A stretch of DNA of 64,000 nt from Pomacea canaliculata (taxonomy: Eukaryota > Mollusca > Gastropoda > Architaenioglossa > Ampullariidae), in assembly GCF_003073045.1 (NCBI RefSeq), contig NC_037596.1:7087416-7151415 (forward strand). Reading direction: 5' to 3'. Below, in pieces: positions 29,501 to 64,000 of this stretch. The stretch's first letter is position 1, and every line of letters begins with the position of its first letter. Position numbers and translations under genes: made by a program. Under the pieces are notes generated by a model. That model saw only the letters and a program-made list of their open reading frames with translations. It was not told where the DNA came from and ran no database searches.

Positions 29501-32500
29501 ACCTTGAAGGTGTGTTTGAAACATTTGTACTACCTCCTACCCGCTCCTCCAAAGGTACTAAAGTAATTAAATTCGTCCAGAAACTTATGAAGCTCTGGAA
29601 AGAATTTGATATTTTTATCGTCAACGATAGATCAACCTGGGATGAAAAAGGAGCAAATGCATGCATAACTAACAGGGGAAAAAAGTGTTGTGGATTATTT
29701 CCTCAGCTGAGGTTCAATATTGGACCTCATTTCAGAAATGAATGTGAATAATAAGGATGAATCAAACCATTTTCTTATCGTTATCACACTGTTAAAAGAT
29801 TCATGTACCCACTGTAGTGATACAAAGGATATCACAATTGACATAGAAGCTGAGGTTAGGTATATATGGCAAGACCAGTATGAAGCAGAATTTATGGAAT
29901 CAGGGCTTCTGCTTACGCAAAAAATTGCGTACAGTACGCATTAAAAGTTTGGCGGACCCCTTTAATTTTCTTCAATGGGGTCCCCTTCAAATTTGGGCGA
30001 AGAACAGGGACCCCTTAAAAATCTGAAGAAGGGGTCCCTGGGACCCCAAAGAATTTAGCCTTAGCAGAAGCCCTGATTGAATACTTGAAAGCAGAGACAG
30101 AACTACCTTTTTAGTCGCTCTTGATAACAGTGTTGGAGATGGGTCTTCCTGTTTTGTGAATTTTCTTCAGAAAGTGGCCTACCGTAAAATTCCTCGAAAC
30201 TTCCAAGAAAACCTTTAAAAGCCTGTGTAAAGCAGCACGGCAAAATTTGACAAGCGTATAATTAGTGACCTGAAAACCGCATGTAATGATTCTAATTCTA
30301 GAAATTTCTGGTAGAAAGTGAAAGCTCTTACAACAAATGCTTATAATTATTACAATAAAATAGCCTCCCCCTCCTCCCCAGACATGGTATACTTTAGGGA
30401 CCTCCTAAATATAATACAAACATCATGTGATACTGAATTCGACATAGAGGTTGAAAGCTGTTTCCTTGATCATAATTATGGGAACTGTGAGAAATGTTTA
30501 CATTTTATTGTAAACTCAAACTTAGAAGAGGAATTTTCCCTCTTGGAAATACTTGGAGCTATTTTTTCTCTAAAAAAAAGCAAAAGCATCCGGACCTGAT
30601 GGATTGCCCTCTGACCTTTCTAAGATTGCAGAGTGAATTAAAAATGTAATTTCCGATGTAAAAAGAAAGTATGCCCTCACTATGTACAACTTTAAGAAAA
30701 TTGGTGAAATACCCATGGAAGAAATTGAGTTTATCATTACTGACCAGCTTTTCTTTGCGATCCTTTTAATCGAGATTATGGGCAAAACTATCTCCCATGC
30801 ATCATTTAGAAAGAAAGAAGAAATGAGAGTAGAACATCAACTGTTAAATAATATAGCAAGATTGGAAAACAAAACTTTGGAACCTAACTTCACTGAAATT
30901 GAAGGTTTAAGAAAAGAGTTGCAAGAATTAAGAAATAAAACTATGGAAGGTGTGGCTGTGAGATATAGAGTAACATTGGTCATAAAAGGAGAAAAAACTA
31001 CCAAATACTTTTACAATTTGGAGAATATAAATTTTGTAAATAAATGCATAGGTTACTTGGATAAGGGAAATGGAAACCTTATTATGGATCAAGATGAAAC
31101 TTTAAAGTAAGTCGAACATTTTTATGGAGAACTGTACAAATTTCAATCAGTAGATAATGTGAAACTAAGTTGCCTGCTACATGATGCCCTGTGCTAACTA
31201 TTGAAACGTCAGAATCTTTTGCCCTCTCTTCACAGATTTTTCGAAAGCATTTGACATTATTCATAGATCCAAATACTTATATATCGTGTTAAAAAAGGGG
31301 TGTCCATGGAAGAATGTTTCAAACACTATATAGTATTATAAAAGTGTGAAAGCTTCTGTTAAGATTGGATTTCAAATAACTGACTACTTTTATTGTATAT
31401 CCGGTGTCAAACAAGGTTGCGTGTTAAGCCCTTTGTTGTTTTCTATCATTCTATCTAAGCTTTGGTCAGACTTAACATTACGTGGTGCACGTGGTATTGA
31501 CGTCCTGGCAGATCCACTTGGGATCTTAATTTTGATGTATGCACATGACATTGCCATTGTTGCTAATTCGCTTGTTGACCTTCAACGTAAAATCTACTAT
31601 CTAGAAACATTGTGTAACAAATGGGGACTTACAGCTAATATGGATAGAATAAAAATAATAGTTTTTTTAAGTGGTGGCTTTATTATGGATTGTGAAAAAT
31701 GGTATCATTTTGGGAAGAAGATTACTTTGGAGCCTAGCTATAATTATTCAGGCGTTATATTCACATCTACACTAAAGTGGCAAAATGTACTGATACTTTA
31801 TCTGGAAAGGCATCAGAAGCCTTTACAGGAGTCAAGAAAATGTATTTTAGATTTAAGAACCCCCAACAGACATAATCTTTAAAATATCTGATACAAAAAG
31901 AAAACCTGTTTTTTTCTTTATGGATCTGAGATTAGTGTGGCGTGTGTATATATATAAATAATATAGCTCAAATAAAACTCAGTAAAATAATTTTAAGTGT
32001 TGGCATGGATGTTAAAAATGATATAGTCCTAGGCGAATGTGGAAGGTTTCCTCTTGTATCTGACTCGTTTATAAGAATTATCCAATACTGGTGCAGATTA
32101 TATACTAACGTTACCTGAACGCAGGAACTAAACAATGTTGCAATATGTTATGTCTACAAGATAAGGCAGGCAAATGTAACTTGGCCTCTCAAGTTAGAAT
32201 TTTACTATGTAGCCATGGCTTTGGGTATTAATGGGAATGGCAGAAAGTTTATAATTTTCACTTATTCATCAGCACAGTAAAAGAAAGATTCGATGACTAT
32301 TTTCGCCAAAAATGGCACGATTCAGTGTCTACTTCTCATTATTGTTGCTACCATCCCGACCTCATTAAAGCCCCATACATATACCAGGTATAACGACACG
32401 AACAAGTACGTGTCCTGTGTTTGATAAGAAGCAACTGTTTACCGCTTAATGGCATCACTCATTGTCACCAAATCAGCAACAAACCTGAGTGTGAACAAAG

Positions 32501-39790: not shown

Positions 39791-42700
39791 ATGCTGTCTT
39801 GGAATGAAGGAAGACGGATAGTTGAATTAGCAGTTCTAGCAGAAAATTTGCATTGCAAGCAGTGCAGTTCTTTGCTTGATTTAAGTAAGACTGTCAGAGA
39901 GACGCGACAAGGTCTTGCCAGTGTGCTGTACATCGTTTGTTCCTGCGGCGTCGCCAACGACGTGCACACGAGCTCGAAGCAGCGAGCCGCAAATGGCAAG
40001 CTTGCATTTGGTGTCAATATCATGGCCTCAGCAGGTGGGATAATGATATATTGGCTTAGTTTTGGTTTCTGTTAAATAATAGAACTAACGCATCTCCCGG
40101 TTTCATTTCCAGCATTTATACTATAAATGCACATGCCTTAAAATCATATGTTTAAACATTTTGTTGAAGAAAATATTCAGTTGCTATGGTAAAAATGCAC
40201 ATATCTTGCAATCACACATTTAACGTTTGTTGTAAAAAGTATTTCTCGATGACTTTTATGACACAATTCCATGCTCTAAGGTATGACCTGTTAATAATTT
40301 AACAAATCATTTAAGACTGTTTGTCATTTGCAGGCTTATTACAGATCGGTATGATGGCCTACATTGTACAGAACTTTTTCTCAGCTCTGAATATTCCTAT
40401 GCCAGTCCCACCTTTTGAGGATGGGTCATATGACACATCTTCAGGGTTCATTGATCCTCTGGGTGACATCAACTTTCAAGCAGCCATGAATACTACTGTA
40501 AGTTGTATTCATAACAAAACATTATAAATGCACTTTAAGCAAAGAAAATGGATGTGTTGTGTTTATTTTTGTTCCCATCAAATCATTTTTTGGTATTGTT
40601 GTTATTAATGCATCTTTCACGGTCGTTCTGATGAATTACTAGCTCAACTGAGAATATCCAATCTATCCTAAGAAACAAAGATGGATTATCATGCTTTATT
40701 ATAGGTGCAAGAGTACATGTGGAGAGATTTGGATAATTTAGGAAGAGATTTCTTGCAATCTCTGACAGAAATCAAAGAAATTTATTTACAAAAACAAACC
40801 AAAAAAAGTGTTAGTTAAAGAAGGTTAACAGCATGCATATTGTTATTATGCTAAAAATAAACTATTAGTGGGTTACATGCTAAGGGCTGGTACAAAATAA
40901 AAACGGGGAGTTACCCATTAACTACAAACAGTACTTGATTGAAAGTCCCACTTTTCACGTAAATGCTAATTCATGTGCTTATTTAATTATTTATTTTGTC
41001 TAAATAGTAAGCTAAAGTATAGAGTGTATTTAGCTCAGTGTTTAGTAATCAGATTAGTTCATAACCGAGCACTTTTTAAAATATACTGGCAGACTATTGG
41101 CTATTAGTTGTTAGATAAAGCTTTTTAGGCTGGTATACAAAAGAATTTATTCTATGTCACAGGTGACAGACACTGGCGACAATTCCTATATCAGCAGCAA
41201 GTCTTCAGATAATTTAGGTATGACAGTAAAAAATAAAAGAAGGACACAAACAAATTTTTTGATAATAATGATGATGGTTTCTTCTTTAGTACAAGTAGTT
41301 GTTTGACATGAAAATGCTTACTTAGATGTGAGGATTCCGAGACATTAACTGGCCGTGGCCTGAGAGAAATACTAGAAAAAGTACATCATTGTCAGTAGAT
41401 TTAATAACATTCAGAAGGATTTCAAAGAATATTTGCTAGACACAAGGATAATATTTGTACGTAGCATGGAATCCAGTAACCAGCTTATGCTATCATTTAT
41501 AGTAGATGTAATGTTGTCTCTTGAGTTAAGAAAGATTTTTTCTTTTCTAGAAGTTGACTTTTAGTAGTTCAGTAAAGATTATTAAAAAATATAGTTTAGC
41601 ATACATTTGAGTTAACTGATAGTTTTTTTTTCTCTCTTTGGAAAGCTGAGACAGAAGATGCAGATGATGATGATGAGGAGGAGGAGGAGGAGGATGAAGA
41701 GGAGGATTCATCTGCAGTGGACCCCAAAGAACAGGACAAAAATGGTCACAATAAAGTCTGTGTCAGTGGAAATGATGAGCCAGCTATTTCACTACCTGTC
41801 CCTGTTCTCCGTAACAATAGATTATCAGGAATCCAGGTGAGATTTGATTTCCTTTAAAATCAACTTTTAAACAAAAAAAAGTAGCAAAATCCAGGTAAAT
41901 AACATTCAAAAGGAGTTACATCCCCTAATATATGATCAGGAAGATGTAAGTTCAAAGATTTGAATTTTCTGGATGGCAACGTGAGTGCACACACGAAGTT
42001 ATCTTATAATTTTTTTAGCCTATTTCTGACACAAAACTTGTTCTTTATCATCGTAAGTTATGTTTATTCATTTCTACATGGTGTGTAGAAATCCACTGAG
42101 TATCAGAATAAGATTCCAGTGATGATTGAGATGATTGTTGTGCCTGTCTTGAAATTTTCTTTTTGGAGATTTGACATGCTTAATTTTCTTTGGATTTACA
42201 AGAAAGTGAAATTTTCTTTTTTTTAACTGCAGTTGATTCAATCAGATTCCTGTGTACCTGAGTATCAAAATCAAAGGTCAAGGTTTGGTCTCAATGTGTG
42301 AAAGACCACATTTATTACAGCCAGCTTTTTCATAGTATGCTATGGAAGAAAGAAGTAGACTGACCTCTGGCATTTGATTGCTGGTGCTCTAACCACTCAG
42401 CTATTTACTTCTTGATCTGTATATCTTGTGGGGGATGAGCTGCTTCAGCTGATTGTAAAGTCAGTATGTTTGTAAAGACAGTGGAGTTGAGGTTGTAGAG
42501 GTCATGTGAACCACACAACATGGCAGATGAACCATTTAGTGTTCAGAGTTTCTTGCTTAGCCATTGAAGAAGCATTCTTTTTTAGTCTATACCTATTTCA
42601 CTGAAATGTAAAGAGTGAAAAGGGAGTTAAACACAAAATAAATAGGATAATTATCTGTACATAGCATGTTGCAGTCTCTAAGCAATACAAAAGCAAAATT

Positions 42701-43707
42701 CCACTACTAATATGTTTAAACGATTAATGAAAAGTCTTGTGTAAAGATTTTTTTCATGATCTCACATATTTTGTTTAAAATATGTCCAGGTCCAACAGGC
42801 AGTTATCATTGTCAATGCCTCAGCTACGGAGAATCGTTATGGCTGTGGCAAATGCTTGAAGGCTTTTCCTACAGAAGAGACCTGCAGAACCCATATAGAG
42901 GCACATGTGGGGTCCAAGCCTTTTCTTTGTGAGGAATGTGGTAGAGGGTTCACCTGTAAGTACAACCTAAAACTGCACACAAAGCAGCACACCGGTGAGA
43001 GGCCATTCAAGTGCGTGCAGTGTGGAAGGGGCTTCATTCGTGAGTTTTCATTAAAAAGACACATGCTGCGACACCTTGGGCACGTCCCTTATACCTGTCA
43101 GGATTGTGGAGAGAGCTTCTCGACCCATGAGAGTCTCAAGCGCCACAAGCGCCTGCATACTGGCGAGAAACCATTCAAATGTGACCAGTGTGACAAGACA
43201 TTTCGTGGCGAGAGTAATCTATACGCACATCGGCGCAGGCACTTTGGTATAAAACCTTACAAGTGCCAAGACTGTGGCGCAGCTTTTGTGGAGTCTACAC
43301 ATCTGACTCGTCATCGCCGCAGGCACACAGGAGAGCAGCCATACATTTGTGACATCTGCGGTGCCCGCTACACCCAGTCAGGCTCGTTGGCTGAGCACCG
43401 TAAGAAACACACTGGAGAGCCCAAAACAGTGCGAGTCCTGCAGTGTGCTGACTGTGGCAAAATTTTTAATAGCTACACGCAGCTCAAAAGACACAAGCGA
43501 GTGCACACAGGTGAAAAACCTTACAAATGTGATGACTGTCAGATGGCCTTCACGCAGTCTTCAAGCCTGAAGGCACACAAACGAATTCATACAGGAGAAA
43601 AGCCATATCGATGTGATGAGTGCAATGAATTGTTCATGTATCAGAGAACACTGCAAAGACATAAAAGAAAACATTTGCTAGAGGATCAAGCTTTAACATC
43701 TCATTAA
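39791..43707 (+). CDS. Mutator-domain / ten C2H2 zinc-finger fusion protein
   Basis: Six exons: 39791-40034, 40334-40497, 40705-40809, 41163-41217, 41646-41836 and 42790-43707. Every junction is GT...AG and phase-compatible, giving 1677 nt (558 aa plus stop). Residues about 1-135 match my memory of the N-terminal part of the Mutator-like transposase domain of molluscs and lancelets: EGRRIVELAVLAE, CKQC, GLASVLYIVCSCG, then SALNIP. The DDE catalytic core is absent. Exon 5 encodes an acidic run (DDDDEEEEEEDEEED). Exon 6 carries ten C2H2 fingers, mostly with TGEKP-type linkers (for example KCDDCQMAFTQSSSLKAHKR); finger 1 is C-x2-C...H-x3-H from about residue 271. Likely a nuclear DNA-binding regulator with a domesticated transposase-derived module. 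The start ATG has no upstream competitor in its exon. The duplicated block lies just upstream. Confidence 0.85.
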
Positions 43708-48516: not shown

Positions 48517-51367
48517 CTACGAGCCTTGTTCACACAAACCCTTGTTCACACAAACATTTCCCTCACCTTTGCCTGGGCAGCACATTCGGAATGGCATGAA
48601 CCCGGCAGTAATGTCTTGACAAGAATAGGGCAGCATCTGTTTCCTCTTGTCGGCGATCAGCTCTACCGCCTCTGGGGACAAGAGGCCGCCGTCTGCTCCC
48701 AACACTTGCGTCAAGACCATCATGCACCGCTGTGTCACGCTGGAGTGGCCCACGCTTCCGGTCGCCTGTCCGGGATTGCCGTAGGTCTCAAGCAAGCCTC
48801 TCGGAGCCTGTTGCTGTCCTGCTGGCATCGGTGCTGCCGCTGGCGTCTTTCTCTGCATGGCATTCATCATGGCCATTGTCATCATCATGTTTTCTCCCCC
48901 GCCACTCCCCATGAGGGACGCCAGCAGCAGTGGGTTCATCCCTCTCCCACCGTTCCTATTGCTGCTCATCTCTGAGATCACCTTGTTGAGGGTTTGATGC
49001 GACAGACACTCCTCCAATGTCTGTTGGAAGCCGGGTGACATGGCTGACATGATGCTGGCCATGTTGGACACGCTTCCGCCAGCCAGGACGCCAGCAGCCT
49101 CGCATGTGTGCTCGGACTGAGGGTGGTGGCAGCTGAACATGAGCCCCGGTACCTGGGCTCCCGGGGGTGCGGCGGCCGTTGGGTCCACGCAGCCATGAGA
49201 CTCGTAGTGCTGAGTAATGCCCATGCGGCGGCCGAGGTTCGAAGCTGCCATTTGGATCTCTGGCGGGATGATGGCGTTGCTGACAGGCGCCTCCTGATGG
49301 TGAGGCTGCGGCTGTTGTGCTGGCGGTTGTGGTAGGAGTGATGGTAGGGGTTGTTGCCCCCAGGAGCTTGGAGCAGGAGGCTTCATTCCAATGGCGTTGA
49401 CAGCATCAAGGTTTAGTCCCATGGGGCCTCGGTTCACCACTGGCATGGGCATCTGCACAGAGGGTGCTGCCGGCGCCGGAGTCCCTCCTGCGTATGGATC
49501 CGACCCTGCCGCTCCGACATTGCTAGGAGAGCCTCCTGAAACTCCTGCCACGCTCCACAAGTTGTTGTTTTGGTTAGGATCGAGTGTGGGGGCATCTACA
49601 ATCACGCCATTCGTCGTCGGAAGAACGGGCAGCTGTGGTGTTCAGGAAAAACTGCCCGAAACCTCCGAGGTCTGGACCAGCGGCAGAGACAGGAGCAGGG
49701 ACCACGGTCGTGGCGTTCTGCTGCTGCGACAGGGTGCTGCCCTGCGTGGTGACAGGATTCAGCAAGCCCATGACATTTTGTAGGAAATTCATTGGCGACT
49801 GGGGCTGACTGTTGTTTGTGGAAATGTTAGCGACTTCCACAAAAGGGTCTGGCAGCTGCTGCGCGGAGATGTTGAGTGGCAGGTCAAGGGCTGAGGGAGG
49901 TGCAATAGGAGGATTCAAGGAAGCTGAGACTGGATTAGAGACAGAGCCGGAGTTGGAGGGACCACTGGTCAGGCTGTACAGATACTGAAGTAAGGAGTCT
50001 GGAACTGTTCCCACTGATAACAGAAATAACTTCGGTTTTCTTTCTTTCTCATGTGCTTATTTCTCTAGATGTTCTTGATGTTTGCGCGCGTGTGTGATTG
50101 CTTTAATACTTGCAATTGTGTGTATGAAAGGTTTTCTTTTTTCTTTCTATTGTTTTTATTTGCATATATGTTCTCAGTGTGAGCGCGCACGTGTATGTGC
50201 CTGTGTAAGTGCATGTGTGAACGCGCGCGAGAGAGAGACAAATGATAGAAAAAGAGAGAACAGAACATTCCCTTTCTCTCCAATATTTTCCCTAGCTTTT
50301 TTTCTTATATATGGCAAAATTCTGTTTTTTTAACTTTTTAAATACTTGCACACAAGATCATTTACGACATCATGCATTTGAATGCTTCATCGTTTTTCTC
50401 GTCTGATGCACAAAGGAGGGAGGTGACAGGTCTAAAGGCATATGGCAATCGATGAAGGATAAAAATCACCAATGGTCTGGTCCTTACCTTGTGCTAATAC
50501 TTGTACATCTGGAAGAAAAATAGAAATTTCATTAATAGCAAAATATCAAACAACCAACTTACTTATTTGGGTGTTTCCGTTTGTTTTCATATGCATTAAC
50601 ATTGAGTTTAAAAGTCTGCTTCAAAATACAGAAAGAAAAGAAGACTGGAAGGATTCAAGAAAGAGACTGAAAAAAAAACCAGAACAGAAATGAAAGAAAA
50701 ATAAAAAAAAAAAATTAAAAAAGCAAAGTAAGATATAAGCCATACTTCTGGGCTTGTGCACATTTGTTGTTGGGGGAAATCGAGCAATAAAGTAATGTCA
50801 AATGGAATTGCAGACTTTGTACACCATTTTCACAATATTCGTACATACAGGTATACGTAGAAAAGAGTTTACACTAGTTCACTAGTTGTTGTATATTCTG
50901 TTGCTTGAAATAAGCAATCACCTTTTTCTGGATATTGTTAGGCCCCTTAACAATCTATCTCTAAGGCTGGCGATCTTTCATTGTCAGTTAAAAAATTGAA
51001 AACACTTTTTATAGATAAATGTTTACAATTTCGTGACCTAGATTTCTATATTATTTATTGTTTCTATATATTTACAATACTTTAATTTATATTTGCATAA
51101 TCAAATACAGATGAAAAGCAAGTTTCTTTTTAACCGCTAATTACATTTAAACCATTATTTGTTTTAAATGCAGATGCTAAACACAATACTTCATAAACTA
51201 TTTGAAAAATGTGCTTGTGGCAACCATCTAAGGTAACCACGACACTGATGTAGTGTCCCAGCACTTCACCTGTAAGTGACTGTTAGACGGAGTTTAGACA
51301 TACCTTGTCGAGAAACAAATAAAAGCATTCCAAAGACGACCACGTGAAACTGCCTCGCTTCCATCAT
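48517..51367 (-). CDS. secreted Met/Pro/Gln/Asn-rich protein, unknown family
   Basis: Minus-strand exons: 51367-51304 (signal peptide MMEARQFHVVVFGMLLFVSR, donor gtatgt, phase 1), a 21-nt micro-exon 50508-50488 (acceptor ttttcttccag, donor gtaagg) and 50013-48517 ending in TAG. The joins read ...RQDVQVLAQVGTVPDSLLQY, in frame. The body is rich in Pro, Gln, Asn, Ser and Met (GENMMMTMAMMNAM). Cysteines are confined to the C-terminal half, ending in a cluster FRMCCPGKGEGNVCVNKGLC. No transmembrane segment after the signal peptide; probably extracellular. Near 49630-49655 the coding frame switches: the text ...GQFFLNTTA continues sensibly only one frame over as LPVLPTTNGVIVDAPT. This may be an indel in the assembly, a decayed gene, or an unusual short intron (TTTTTCCTGAACACCACAG resembles an acceptor). 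The composition recalls matrix-type secreted proteins, but that is only a guess. Confidence 0.72.
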
Positions 51368-59579: not shown

Positions 59580-61454
59580 TCATTCCTTTATGTTGACGAG
59601 GGATAAGCTGTATCCGGTTAGGTAGCTGACGACAGCGAATAATCCAATTGTCGAAGTTGAAATGCACTTGCGTTGACTTGAGTTTTTCTGAGACTTGGTT
59701 TCCGCTGTAAACAGGAAGAGGAATTAAAGACCTACTGGCTTGCTGGCTCCCTTCTTCACTTTCTCACCCACCCATCACCAACCCAACACAACATCACAGA
59801 AAATAAACAAAAAAATAAATAAATAAATAAACAAAATCCGACAAAGAAAGAGACTTAATACCTTATTGAAAGATAATAATAGCTTTGATTATTAAAGAAG
59901 AAGGAGGTAAGCTGCGTACCTTGCATCAAACAATTATCGTCCACACAGTTGAGATCTCCTGTCGCTTCTTTGATTGACACAGCTGTAAAATCAAGAGAAA
60001 GTAAATAAAAATGAATTAATTTAATGCTGTTTCCCTAGAAGATCAAATAATCACTGTCATCATCCTGCCGACCATCATTACCTGGAAGCTGTTCCACTGT
60101 GACCTCATCGTAATATCTGTCATCGTCCACATGGTCGGGCAAGGCGCACCGGTACATTGTGCCGCGGTCCTCAGTAGCCAACGACACCAGCAACGCCCGC
60201 CGTGACATCACCCTGCAGCCGTCATTGGTGAAGTACTCGACTTCCGCCTGGCCCTCGGCGATCTGGAAGTGACGCATGTCTGGTGCTTTCACGTACCACT
60301 GGAACTCCTGCGGCGGGAGGCCGGCATCCGCGTGACAGCTCAGCCGCCAGGTGGCTCTCCTGTGTCCGGGAGTTTCGTGATCATACGTCACTCGGGGAGT
60401 CCCTGGAGGCTCTGAAGAATATGAAAGAGTTAGTAAGTAGTTATATATATAGATATTATTATTATTATTATATCCTCTTAAAATATGTTTTTGGGATTTG
60501 AACCTTTATAGCTCACGTATGGTACTGTAAAATGGTTGGTTTATTAAACTGAACGATTACATTTTACGAATAAGCGAATGAGTGGATTACGTTTGCGTAT
60601 GCGTACGAGAAAGAGTGTGCGTAGATGTCAGGAGACGTGTGAGTGTGTGTTTAAGACAGAAAATGCAATGTGTATGAATGTGCTTATGCCTGTTTGTGTT
60701 TTTAAAACAAAGATTATTTGTGTATACGTTTGTGTGCGCCAGCGTGTTCACGTGCAACATACGTCGCAACTGAAGGTCTGTGTACTCCGAGGAGTCCTCA
60801 GTAGCACCGAAGACTCCACGACACCGGTATGTCCCCATGTCGGCACAGGTGAGGGCGCAACCACGAGGTTGAACTCCACCAGCCCCGCCTGCACCGTGAT
60901 GAGGGCTGGAACCTTTCCCGCACCGATCTGACATCCGGGTTCCAATCAGGCACCTGTGGAAATTATAAAAGAAAATGATTGCAGCATAGACACGTATGTC
61001 TACAAGCTTTGCAAGCGATGACTGCTGGTGAAATTTTAAGACACAAACTTCTAAGAATTTAGACAGGAATGTCCATGACTGTTGATGGTGGATGCTTAGA
61101 TGTTAGCGTCTGGTAGTTGACATTGCTAATCTTGTTGGTTTGTAAACTTGGGTTAAACTGTAAACCTGGGGTAAACCTGGTGAACACACCACAACAATCT
61201 TTACAATTAAGGAATCAGGGTGTTAAAGTTCAAGTGTAGTGTACACCGAGGTGTATATAAATGTACAGATGTACAGGAAGTAGGTGGTCGTACCATTTGT
61301 CCTGAAGGGAGTCTGACGATCACCGTTTCTGTGCCGTTGTCATGGAGTCTGGACCAGGAGATGACGTACCAACGGTCAGAGGTTTCCAGACGGCAGCGCA
61401 AGGTGGCGCTCTCGTCCAGCTCACCAATCGTAACGCTGGGGACAGTCAGCTCAC
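59580..61454 (-). CDS. two-Ig-domain surface protein (5' end outside or not found)
   Basis: Minus-strand exons: 61454-61294, 60953-60763, 60411-60082, 59982-59920 and 59704-59580 ending in TGA. Ig domain 1 is split over the first two: core Cys in ATLRCRLE, Trp in VISWSR, then DMGTYRCRG with the second Cys. Ig domain 2 is one exon: RLSCHADAG, FQWYVK, DRGTMYRCALP. A short linker with two Cys (DLNCVDDNC) and a C-terminal hydrophobic stretch (STIGLFAVVSYLTGYSLSLV) follow; the last could be a membrane or GPI-anchor segment. Phases agree except inside 60953-60763, where good text appears successively in three frames (DWNPDVRS, then KVPALITVQAGLVEFNLVVA, then CADMGTYRCRGVFGATE), so the exon has about two small indels. 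Exons with the signal peptide were not found up to 64000. Ig-type surface proteins of this kind are often recognition molecules in gastropods; that role is inference. Confidence 0.75.
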
Positions 61455-64000
61455 CTGTAACACCGCATGAACACCACTGGTCTGATATCACGTGACTCAA
61501 TAAAGGAGGAGCGGCAGAGAATTGGGGAGGGGAAGAGGAAAGTGACAGGAGGTTAACTTCGGAAGTGAATGAACACTGGAAACTTGACTGGAAAGAAAAC
61601 CTGTTTAACTGTTTGGACTATTTCTTAATTAAGGAGTTTAGATTTCTTTTTTTTAATGTTTAATATTCTAATTATTTGATTGAAACTTTTTTAAAATTAT
61701 TTTTATCTTTAAATTTAACTGTTATTGTTTTTTTTATTATTAGATCTTCTGAATGCCACTGTAGAGTGCAGGTGACAATGTCGAAATATGATAAAACTAC
61801 TTAATTTTAAATATTAATAATATTAAATATTTTTAAATAAAAGTATTATAATCAAAATAACTGTCTTTATTTTCTGTAACTACATCAGGGGCTCTGAAAG
61901 GCGGTTGTGGTGGACACAGAAATTAATCTCTCCTTTATCGTACACAGTTCTCTAATAGCATAATCATTGGAACAATCTTGTAAAGTATAAAACATTTATT
62001 TCAACACACTCCACACAAAATACATTTTTGTTTGGTTTTATTAATGCTTTTAAAGCACCGTAACCAAATAAAACCCGTTTGTGACAATACCATTTCATTT
62101 TAGCCACACAAAGGAAACCTCATAACACCCTTTATGACAAACCCTGAAGGTTATATTCGGAACCCTTCTTTTTTCTCGTCTGCTTGCTGACAAAACGAAC
62201 TGTAATTATGAACCGGTTTCCACTGAAAGCCCAGCAAGCGTCCATCGCTGGTGCCAGGCGCTCGACTGAGTTTGTCTCCGGCGATCGAAGAGAATAATTA
62301 TGATGAATAGCGCCTCGACATTTGCCTCCCCTTTTGTGCGCTCTTCAGGCTCTGCCACCTTCTAAAGGTGAGCCGGTGACGTCACTGCTCCTTCCGCCAA
62401 CTCGAAGGGACTGTGTACCTTGATAAACACAGTCGCAGACCTGCCATTGTGGTTTGAAAGTCTCCTGTGCGGGAAAGTTCGATGGTGTTTAGTAGCACGT
62501 GTACTAACAGTCAAAAGGAATGTTGGGACTAATGTGAGAAGAGAATGTGGACAACTGTAATAATAGATTGTTACAACAGGAACAAGCGAATGAATGATCG
62601 TTAAGCTTTTAAAAAAGAAGGGAAAGCAACCGAAATGAGAAGATTTATGAATATTTACTGTAATGCAAAAGATCCATTGACTAGATTCTAGATGGGCAAT
62701 AACCTCTGAGTGATTCACCGTGCCTAGGCCCCAAAATATGGAAGACCATGCTGAGCCTTCTGTTTCTCCCACCCCTAACCTTCATTAAATCAGGCAACTT
62801 ATTGGGAGAGAGGTTTGCAGTCAGTGGAAGAGCAAGTTTCGAACCGACGACCTTCTAAAACAAAGTCTAACAACGAGAGAGGGAGGAAGTAACAATGTCA
62901 AATTTTTATTTACAAGTGTTTACCATACTAGGCTAAACAGGCAATTGTTTTATCCAACTCTCGCCTTATATAATTCAAAAAATAGATGGACAGAAATAGA
63001 CTGTGAAATATATGAGAAATATGAGAAGAAATGATATGCATTTGTTATCGTCTTCCTTTTTTTTTCTCCATTCTTTCCTTCCTGTATCCCTGTGATTTGC
63101 ACTAGTACTTTGAACTCAGTCTCCAATCTATAACTCCTAATAAATTTATTAAGACCTAATGAAAGGAAACGCACTGTCAGTTATTTTTCCGCTTTTCAAT
63201 CAATTTTACAAATAAGAAAATTTTTTTTTTTGTTTAGCACGATTAGGACTTCCGTCATTTTCTTCAAAAATTCACATGAAGCTTACTACTATCGACCAAA
63301 AACATCGCTTGTATGTGCATGCTAGACTTACTTTAGGCTTCAAAGGATTTTTTTTAGTGTAAAGCGAGCGAAGCTCATTTTGTTCGCTGAGATTTTAATT
63401 CAAGTGAATAATTCCTTCCATCACAATTAGAAGCAAAGAAAGGGAAGGTGTTTCCCAGTACATTGCATTTTCAGCCACAAGCGTTTTTCTCTATTCCCAT
63501 CTGTCTTAGTTCTAATTTTTCTACCCATCCCGTCTTCTTCTTTTTTTTGTACCTTAGTGAATAGGAATATTTCGTGTTGGTGTCATTTGAGTTTGGAAGT
63601 TCGACGTTTACTAAGGGTAGCCAGTGTAACGGTTTCTTTCTACATCTAGGAAGAGAATGGGCAGATCAATTTTGTTACGGGGCAGAGGGAGAGAGATTAA
63701 AATACATTCACACACCCACACATAGGACAAACGCATACATTAAATTTCACACAAAGAATTATACAACTACAACCCACTCACATCATAAACACAAACAACA
63801 ACACGTCACTGAATCGATTAGTTAGAGCGACAGGGTTCAAACCTATTAAAATGCACACTGCCGTGTTCAATACTCGTGTGAATCAGTGTATTTTTTCCAG
63901 CTAACCAAGCAGTGAAATGAGACTGAAAGTAAGGCAGCGATGAAAGTGGATGGGTACCATCCTCAGAAAGGTTGGCCATGAGGTAAGCAAGGGCCTCAAC
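61455..64000. other. no gene seen; should hold or precede the 5' end of the Ig gene
   Basis: AT-rich with short open frames (62362-62772 and 62950-63174 on the minus strand) that show no domain. No signal-peptide exon with a phase-1 donor could be identified. Confidence 0.4.

Follow-up and report, generated by a model that had tools for sequence, protein, structure and literature searches.

A Mutator transposase N-terminal domain probably joined to C2H2 zinc fingers in a family of ten Pomacea canaliculata genes

Overview

Positions 39791-43707 on the forward strand of the window, i.e., the whole 64-kb stretch of Pomacea canaliculata DNA analysed here (C7 7087416-7151415), probably hold a single gene belonging to a ten-gene family of this snail, in which the N-terminal domain of Mutator-like transposases is fused to C2H2 zinc fingers in what would be DNA-binding proteins. 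A family of DNA-binding host proteins appears to have arisen from a fragment of a transposon. The evidence comes from the domain composition of the window protein, from its nine paralogues, one of which bears the second half of the domain and the fingers in one uninterrupted frame, and from the selection acting on the domain.

Domain composition of the window protein

Six exons can be outlined on the forward strand. The start codon lies in exon 1 (39791..40034), which encodes most of the Mutator N-terminal domain (EGRRIVEL..., CxxC, CxC), while exon 2 (40334..40497) encodes the remaining part, a helix-like stretch with LNIP that extends to about 40404, after which the linker begins. Exon 3 (40705..40809) is doubtful: it could be a cassette that keeps the frame but has a weak donor, or the last exon of a transcript. 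Exon 4 (41163..41217) encodes linker, exon 5 (41646..41836) an acidic linker with a run of D/E residues, and exon 6 (42790..43707) ten C2H2 fingers (42844-43674) together with the stop codon. All six exons spliced together give 558 residues without a single internal stop.

The original prediction, made from the sequence alone, saw a likeness to Mutator transposases in the N-terminal part and proposed a Pfam search as a check. The search bears this out: spliced exons 1-2 match the PF20700 (Mutator) family over residues 7-105 with 59.1 bits (E 4.7e-16, cut-off 26.5), which corresponds to profile positions 1-102 of 357. As had also been predicted, the remainder of the transposase is absent, no Pfam match to profile positions 103-357, where we take the DDE core to be located, being found in the window protein. 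Hence, the protein does not have the make-up of an active Mutator-like transposase: the match stops at position 102 of 357, and fingers come next. The domain consists of approximately 100 residues and bears four cysteines in a zinc-ribbon-like pattern followed by a helix-like stretch that ends with LxIP.

The ten-finger array of the original prediction was recovered by a motif scan of exon 6, and C2H2 families are also matched in the C-terminal part among the best 25 of 45 Pfam families listed for the finger-containing window protein. The tandem fingers follow the CX2CX12HX3-5H pattern, with TGE[RKQ]P present in 5 of the 9 inter-finger linkers, so that the product can be classed as a C2H2 protein. 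KRAB, SCAN, BTB, and ZAD domains gave no Pfam match either in the protein encoded by exons 1-3 (E values up to 10) or in the N-terminal parts of the nine paralogues (up to E 0.1). A profile built from five exon-1 sequences found no match among solved structures up to E 1, and 16 pattern matches of the same profile in viral contigs yielded none that was confirmed. Single-sequence fold prediction of exon 1 was poor (mean pLDDT 46.5).

Within the 64-kb window, no other frames with two or more fingers were found. The window also bears a reverse-transcriptase fragment at 31334-31879 (+) (RVT_1, 48.9 bits), perhaps a part of an old LINE element; a proline- and glycine-rich open frame of 374 codons at 48517-49641 (-), for which Pfam gave no match at E values up to 0.01; and, at 61207-61617 (-), a weak immunoglobulin V-set match that scores 19.2 bits against a cut-off of 26 and may mark an exon of an Ig-domain gene.

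A family of ten genes on one contig

The genome searched comprises 440,159,624 bases in 24 contigs. A protein search with the N-terminal part of the window protein revealed this N-terminal exon in ten genes, each of them on C7: J (4.19 Mb), the window gene (7.13), A1 (7.742), A2 (7.748), A3 (7.756), H (16.36), I (18.60), B (20.756), E (20.763), and F (20.779). The sole further match, on C2, had an E value of 1.08, and the identical ten members were recovered when the search was seeded from paralogue E. If close neighbours are counted as one, the members occupy six places over 16.6 Mb of the 30.9-Mb contig; their location on a single contig suggests that the family spread within one chromosome.

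PF20700 is matched above the cut-off in the window gene and in eight of the nine other members, with paralogue I scoring 25.3 against 26.5 for exon 1 alone. A phase-1 donor is present at the homologous end of exon 1 in all ten members, the boundary being shifted by one codon in I and J to reach GT. Exon 2, with its matching acceptor phase, helix-like stretch, and LxIP, has been found in eight members including the window gene; in I there is a weak candidate, and in B none was found. Where exon 2 is present, in eight members, the PF20700 match goes no further than profile positions 102-109 of 357. Identity of the domain within the family is 39-67%, and the nearest relative of the window domain is that of paralogue E (60% identical in exon 1).

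Fusion of the domain to the fingers

The Mutator-N/C2H2 fusion is supported in the family by paralogue E, which carries the second half of the domain, the linker, and the fingers in one frame: its 404-codon frame runs uninterrupted from the LDIP stretch, across a linker rich in proline and glutamine, into six fingers, and exon 1 spliced to exon 2 would give a protein of 477 residues. Likewise, the frame of exon 2 extends from LxIP into a first finger in paralogues F, H, and J. Thus, the predicted joining of the domain to C2H2 fingers stands, but on the frame of paralogue E and not on the matching exon phases that had been offered as proof for the window gene itself, where exon 3 may be skipped or terminal.

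In every member, one or more finger motifs follow on the same strand, and in eight of the ten there are four or more. The counts are 10 in the window gene, 4+2 in A1, 14 in A2, 11 in A3, 5 in B, 6 in E, 1+8 in H, 1+6+2 in J, and 1 each in F and I, where 6 kb of sequence was scanned for each of F, H, I, and J. The single finger of paralogue I is out of frame with its weak LxIP segment, and for the array of paralogue B, proximity is the sole link to exon 1, since no exon 2 was found there. A control scan covered 11 separate PF20700 loci of the transposase type, taken from the 38 non-family PF20700 matches in the genome (some sharing a locus), with 1.5 to 10 kb per locus; none had a frame with two or more fingers.

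Selection and origin of the domain

The Mutator N-terminal domain is clearly under purifying selection in the family. A test for such selection had been proposed with the original prediction, and when it was run among the paralogues, pN was lower than pS for the exon-1 part in 45 of 45 family pairs, which are non-independent. In 44 of these pairs, synonymous sites are at or near saturation; A2-A3, the lone pair with dS below 1, gives a dS of 0.81 and a dN/dS of 0.29. The four cysteines are kept in all ten members.

The family domain is 14-30% identical to that of two transposases of the same genome, L001 (a 651-codon frame) and L006 (a 709-codon frame), where the region is present without the intron found in the family. 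Many PF20700 fragments, some with stops, also occur in the genome. A domain tree of the family and the two transposases has supports from 23 to 74 and places L001 beside the window gene at a support of 23; it shows neither the family as a clade nor the direction of transfer. Nevertheless, the absence of the intron from both transposases and the low identity fit a passage from transposon to host. The idea of a domesticated transposon module, put forward in the original prediction, is therefore probable, its direction not being polarised by the tree.

Finger arrays and exchange of modules

The finger arrays do not simply follow the N-terminal domain. By identity, the window fingers are nearest to those of five finger genes on C2 (42-47%, 224-276 bits), which are absent from the PF20700 matches and have no detected Mutator domain. 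Against members of its own family, the window array gives 37% identity with A2 and A3 (221 and 219 bits, respectively), 37% with E (124 bits, a shorter array), and 42% with A1 (151 bits, a short match), so that the contrast between the C2 genes and the family is clear by identity and weaker by bits. The best match to the first finger of the window gene is the finger that opens an array at C7 7790736-7791671; first fingers of the family rank 6, 11, 55, 70, and 95 among 149 entries, with a few entries counted twice.

The array of A2 is 71% identical to that of A3 and 59-63% identical to two adjoining arrays on C7, at 7765510-7767559 (in several frames) and 7774402-7776164, neither with a detected Mutator exon; the best hit of the exon-1 profile at the arrays beside A2 and A3 had an E value of 0.65 in 110 kb searched. 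Finger genes cluster on both strands of the region C7 7.744-7.813 Mb (L015-L017, L025-L029), next to three Mutator-domain genes. The mismatch between arrays and domains is explained by exchange or loss of modules. At the same time, the window fingers are nearer to C2 genes devoid of the domain, and this keeps a two-gene reading of the window locus under consideration.

Splicing of the window gene and rival explanations

The claim that all six exons join in phase holds only with the exon 3 donor after 40809, and that donor is weak: it scores 2.5 bits on a simple matrix of consensus frequencies, where the four remaining donors reach 6.5 to 10.8. Another exon 3 donor, after 40807, was rejected as it is out of phase and scores 0.8 bits. 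If exon 3 is skipped, the frame is kept and the protein has 523 residues; the donor of exon 2 is fair (6.8 bits) and phase-compatible with exon 4. Judging from the family, the window gene would most simply be spliced as exons 1-2-4-5-6. Its own fusion has to be inferred from the family in this way because a short transcript could terminate in exon 3 and exon 4 is preceded, just before its acceptor, by an ATG in frame at 41154.

Exon 3 has an AG acceptor and remains readable as far as a TAA stop at 40816-40818, behind which AATAAA occurs at 40856 and 40896. Together with ATG 41154, these signals mean that the phase argument alone leaves room for two neighbouring genes, exons 1-3 encoding a 173-residue Mutator-domain protein whose frame closes at 40818 and the fingers belonging to a gene of their own that starts from about ATG 41154, and the resemblance of the window array to genes without a detected Mutator domain points the same way. 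Such an arrangement is nonetheless unlikely: the exon 2 donor leads in phase to exon 4, the end of the domain and a finger share one frame in E, F, H, and J, and AATAAA/ATTAAA is frequent locally, with nine matches in 5.1 kb at this locus. The same open exon 3, with its acceptor and a frame that survives its skipping, would also allow both forms to be made, a long regulator and, with exon 3 last, a short protein of the Mutator domain only that competes for partners. We give this little credence, as exon 3 has no relatives found in the genome, query residues 136-173 having matched only themselves in the protein search. It might finally be supposed, given the many PF20700 fragments in the genome, that exons 1-2 stem from a transposon inserted recently, or from a transposase in decay, and lie before a finger gene by chance. 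The family largely refutes this highly improbable reading, since its ten members are diverged, share a common donor site, and are under purifying selection, and the two transposases have long open frames in which that intron is missing. A single fused gene is thus the reading that we retain for 39791-43707.

Proposed role

The family proteins would be sequence-specific DNA-binding regulators. By analogy with other C2H2 proteins, the fingers would select where on the DNA the protein binds, and the transposase domain, now outside the context of an enzyme, might pair copies of the protein or recruit partners. N-terminal domains of other C2H2 families do pair proteins or recruit partners, and on this analogy a role of the Mutator domain in dimerisation or recruitment is put forward tentatively, at a little under even chances. 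It is a much bolder and rather improbable proposal that the domain founded a C2H2 class of its own in gastropods, comparable to KRAB or ZAD, with modules exchanged between arrays, and that some members may bind and silence the donor Mutator elements, the shared domain pairing with the transposase.

Comparison with known systems

C2H2 proteins expand fast in many animal lineages, and their families are distinguished by the N-terminal partner domain, as in KRAB, SCAN, and the insect ZAD. The snail genes follow the same plan of an N-terminal module, a linker, and a C2H2 array, with lineage-specific tandem duplication, and differ in that the N-terminal module is a Mutator domain. A transposase N-terminal domain under selection in ten snail genes would be an added C2H2 partner domain, and the family offers a clean case for asking how a transposon module turns regulatory. 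No account of a Mutator N-terminal domain paired with C2H2 fingers was found among the papers listed in the literature searches, including the accessible text of PMC12062965, PMC10027918, and PMC10294476, with subscription journals and protein databases outside the scope of the search.

With the Mutator-like transposases of PF20700, the family shares the N-terminal region of about 100 residues, the paired cysteines, and an LxIP-like end; it differs from them in that the match ends at position 102-109 of 357, C2H2 fingers come next, and there is an extra intron that the two local transposases lack. According to the accessible part of PMC10027918, six families of transposon-derived factors exist in animals, FLYWCH and FHY3 coming from Mutator-type elements, and such factors of other families have expanded in molluscs. 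FLYWCH and FHY3 are also DNA-binding and Mutator-derived but are named after other domains, and C2H2 is absent from the main text of that paper.

SETMAR and KRABINER are named in the accessible text of PMC12062965 as host-transposase fusion genes. As proposed for the snail family, they bring together a transposase domain and a host domain in a gene-regulatory protein. Their transposon superfamilies and partner domains differ from the Mutator/C2H2 pairing. In the literature searched, the nearest printed parallel is provided by the BTB-integrase proteins with finger arrays, 808 of 828 of which are from chordates (PMC12062965, accessible text). These are likewise multicopy and combine an N-terminal domain derived from a mobile element with a zinc-finger array, but they bear an integrase rather than a Mutator domain, and BTB is present.
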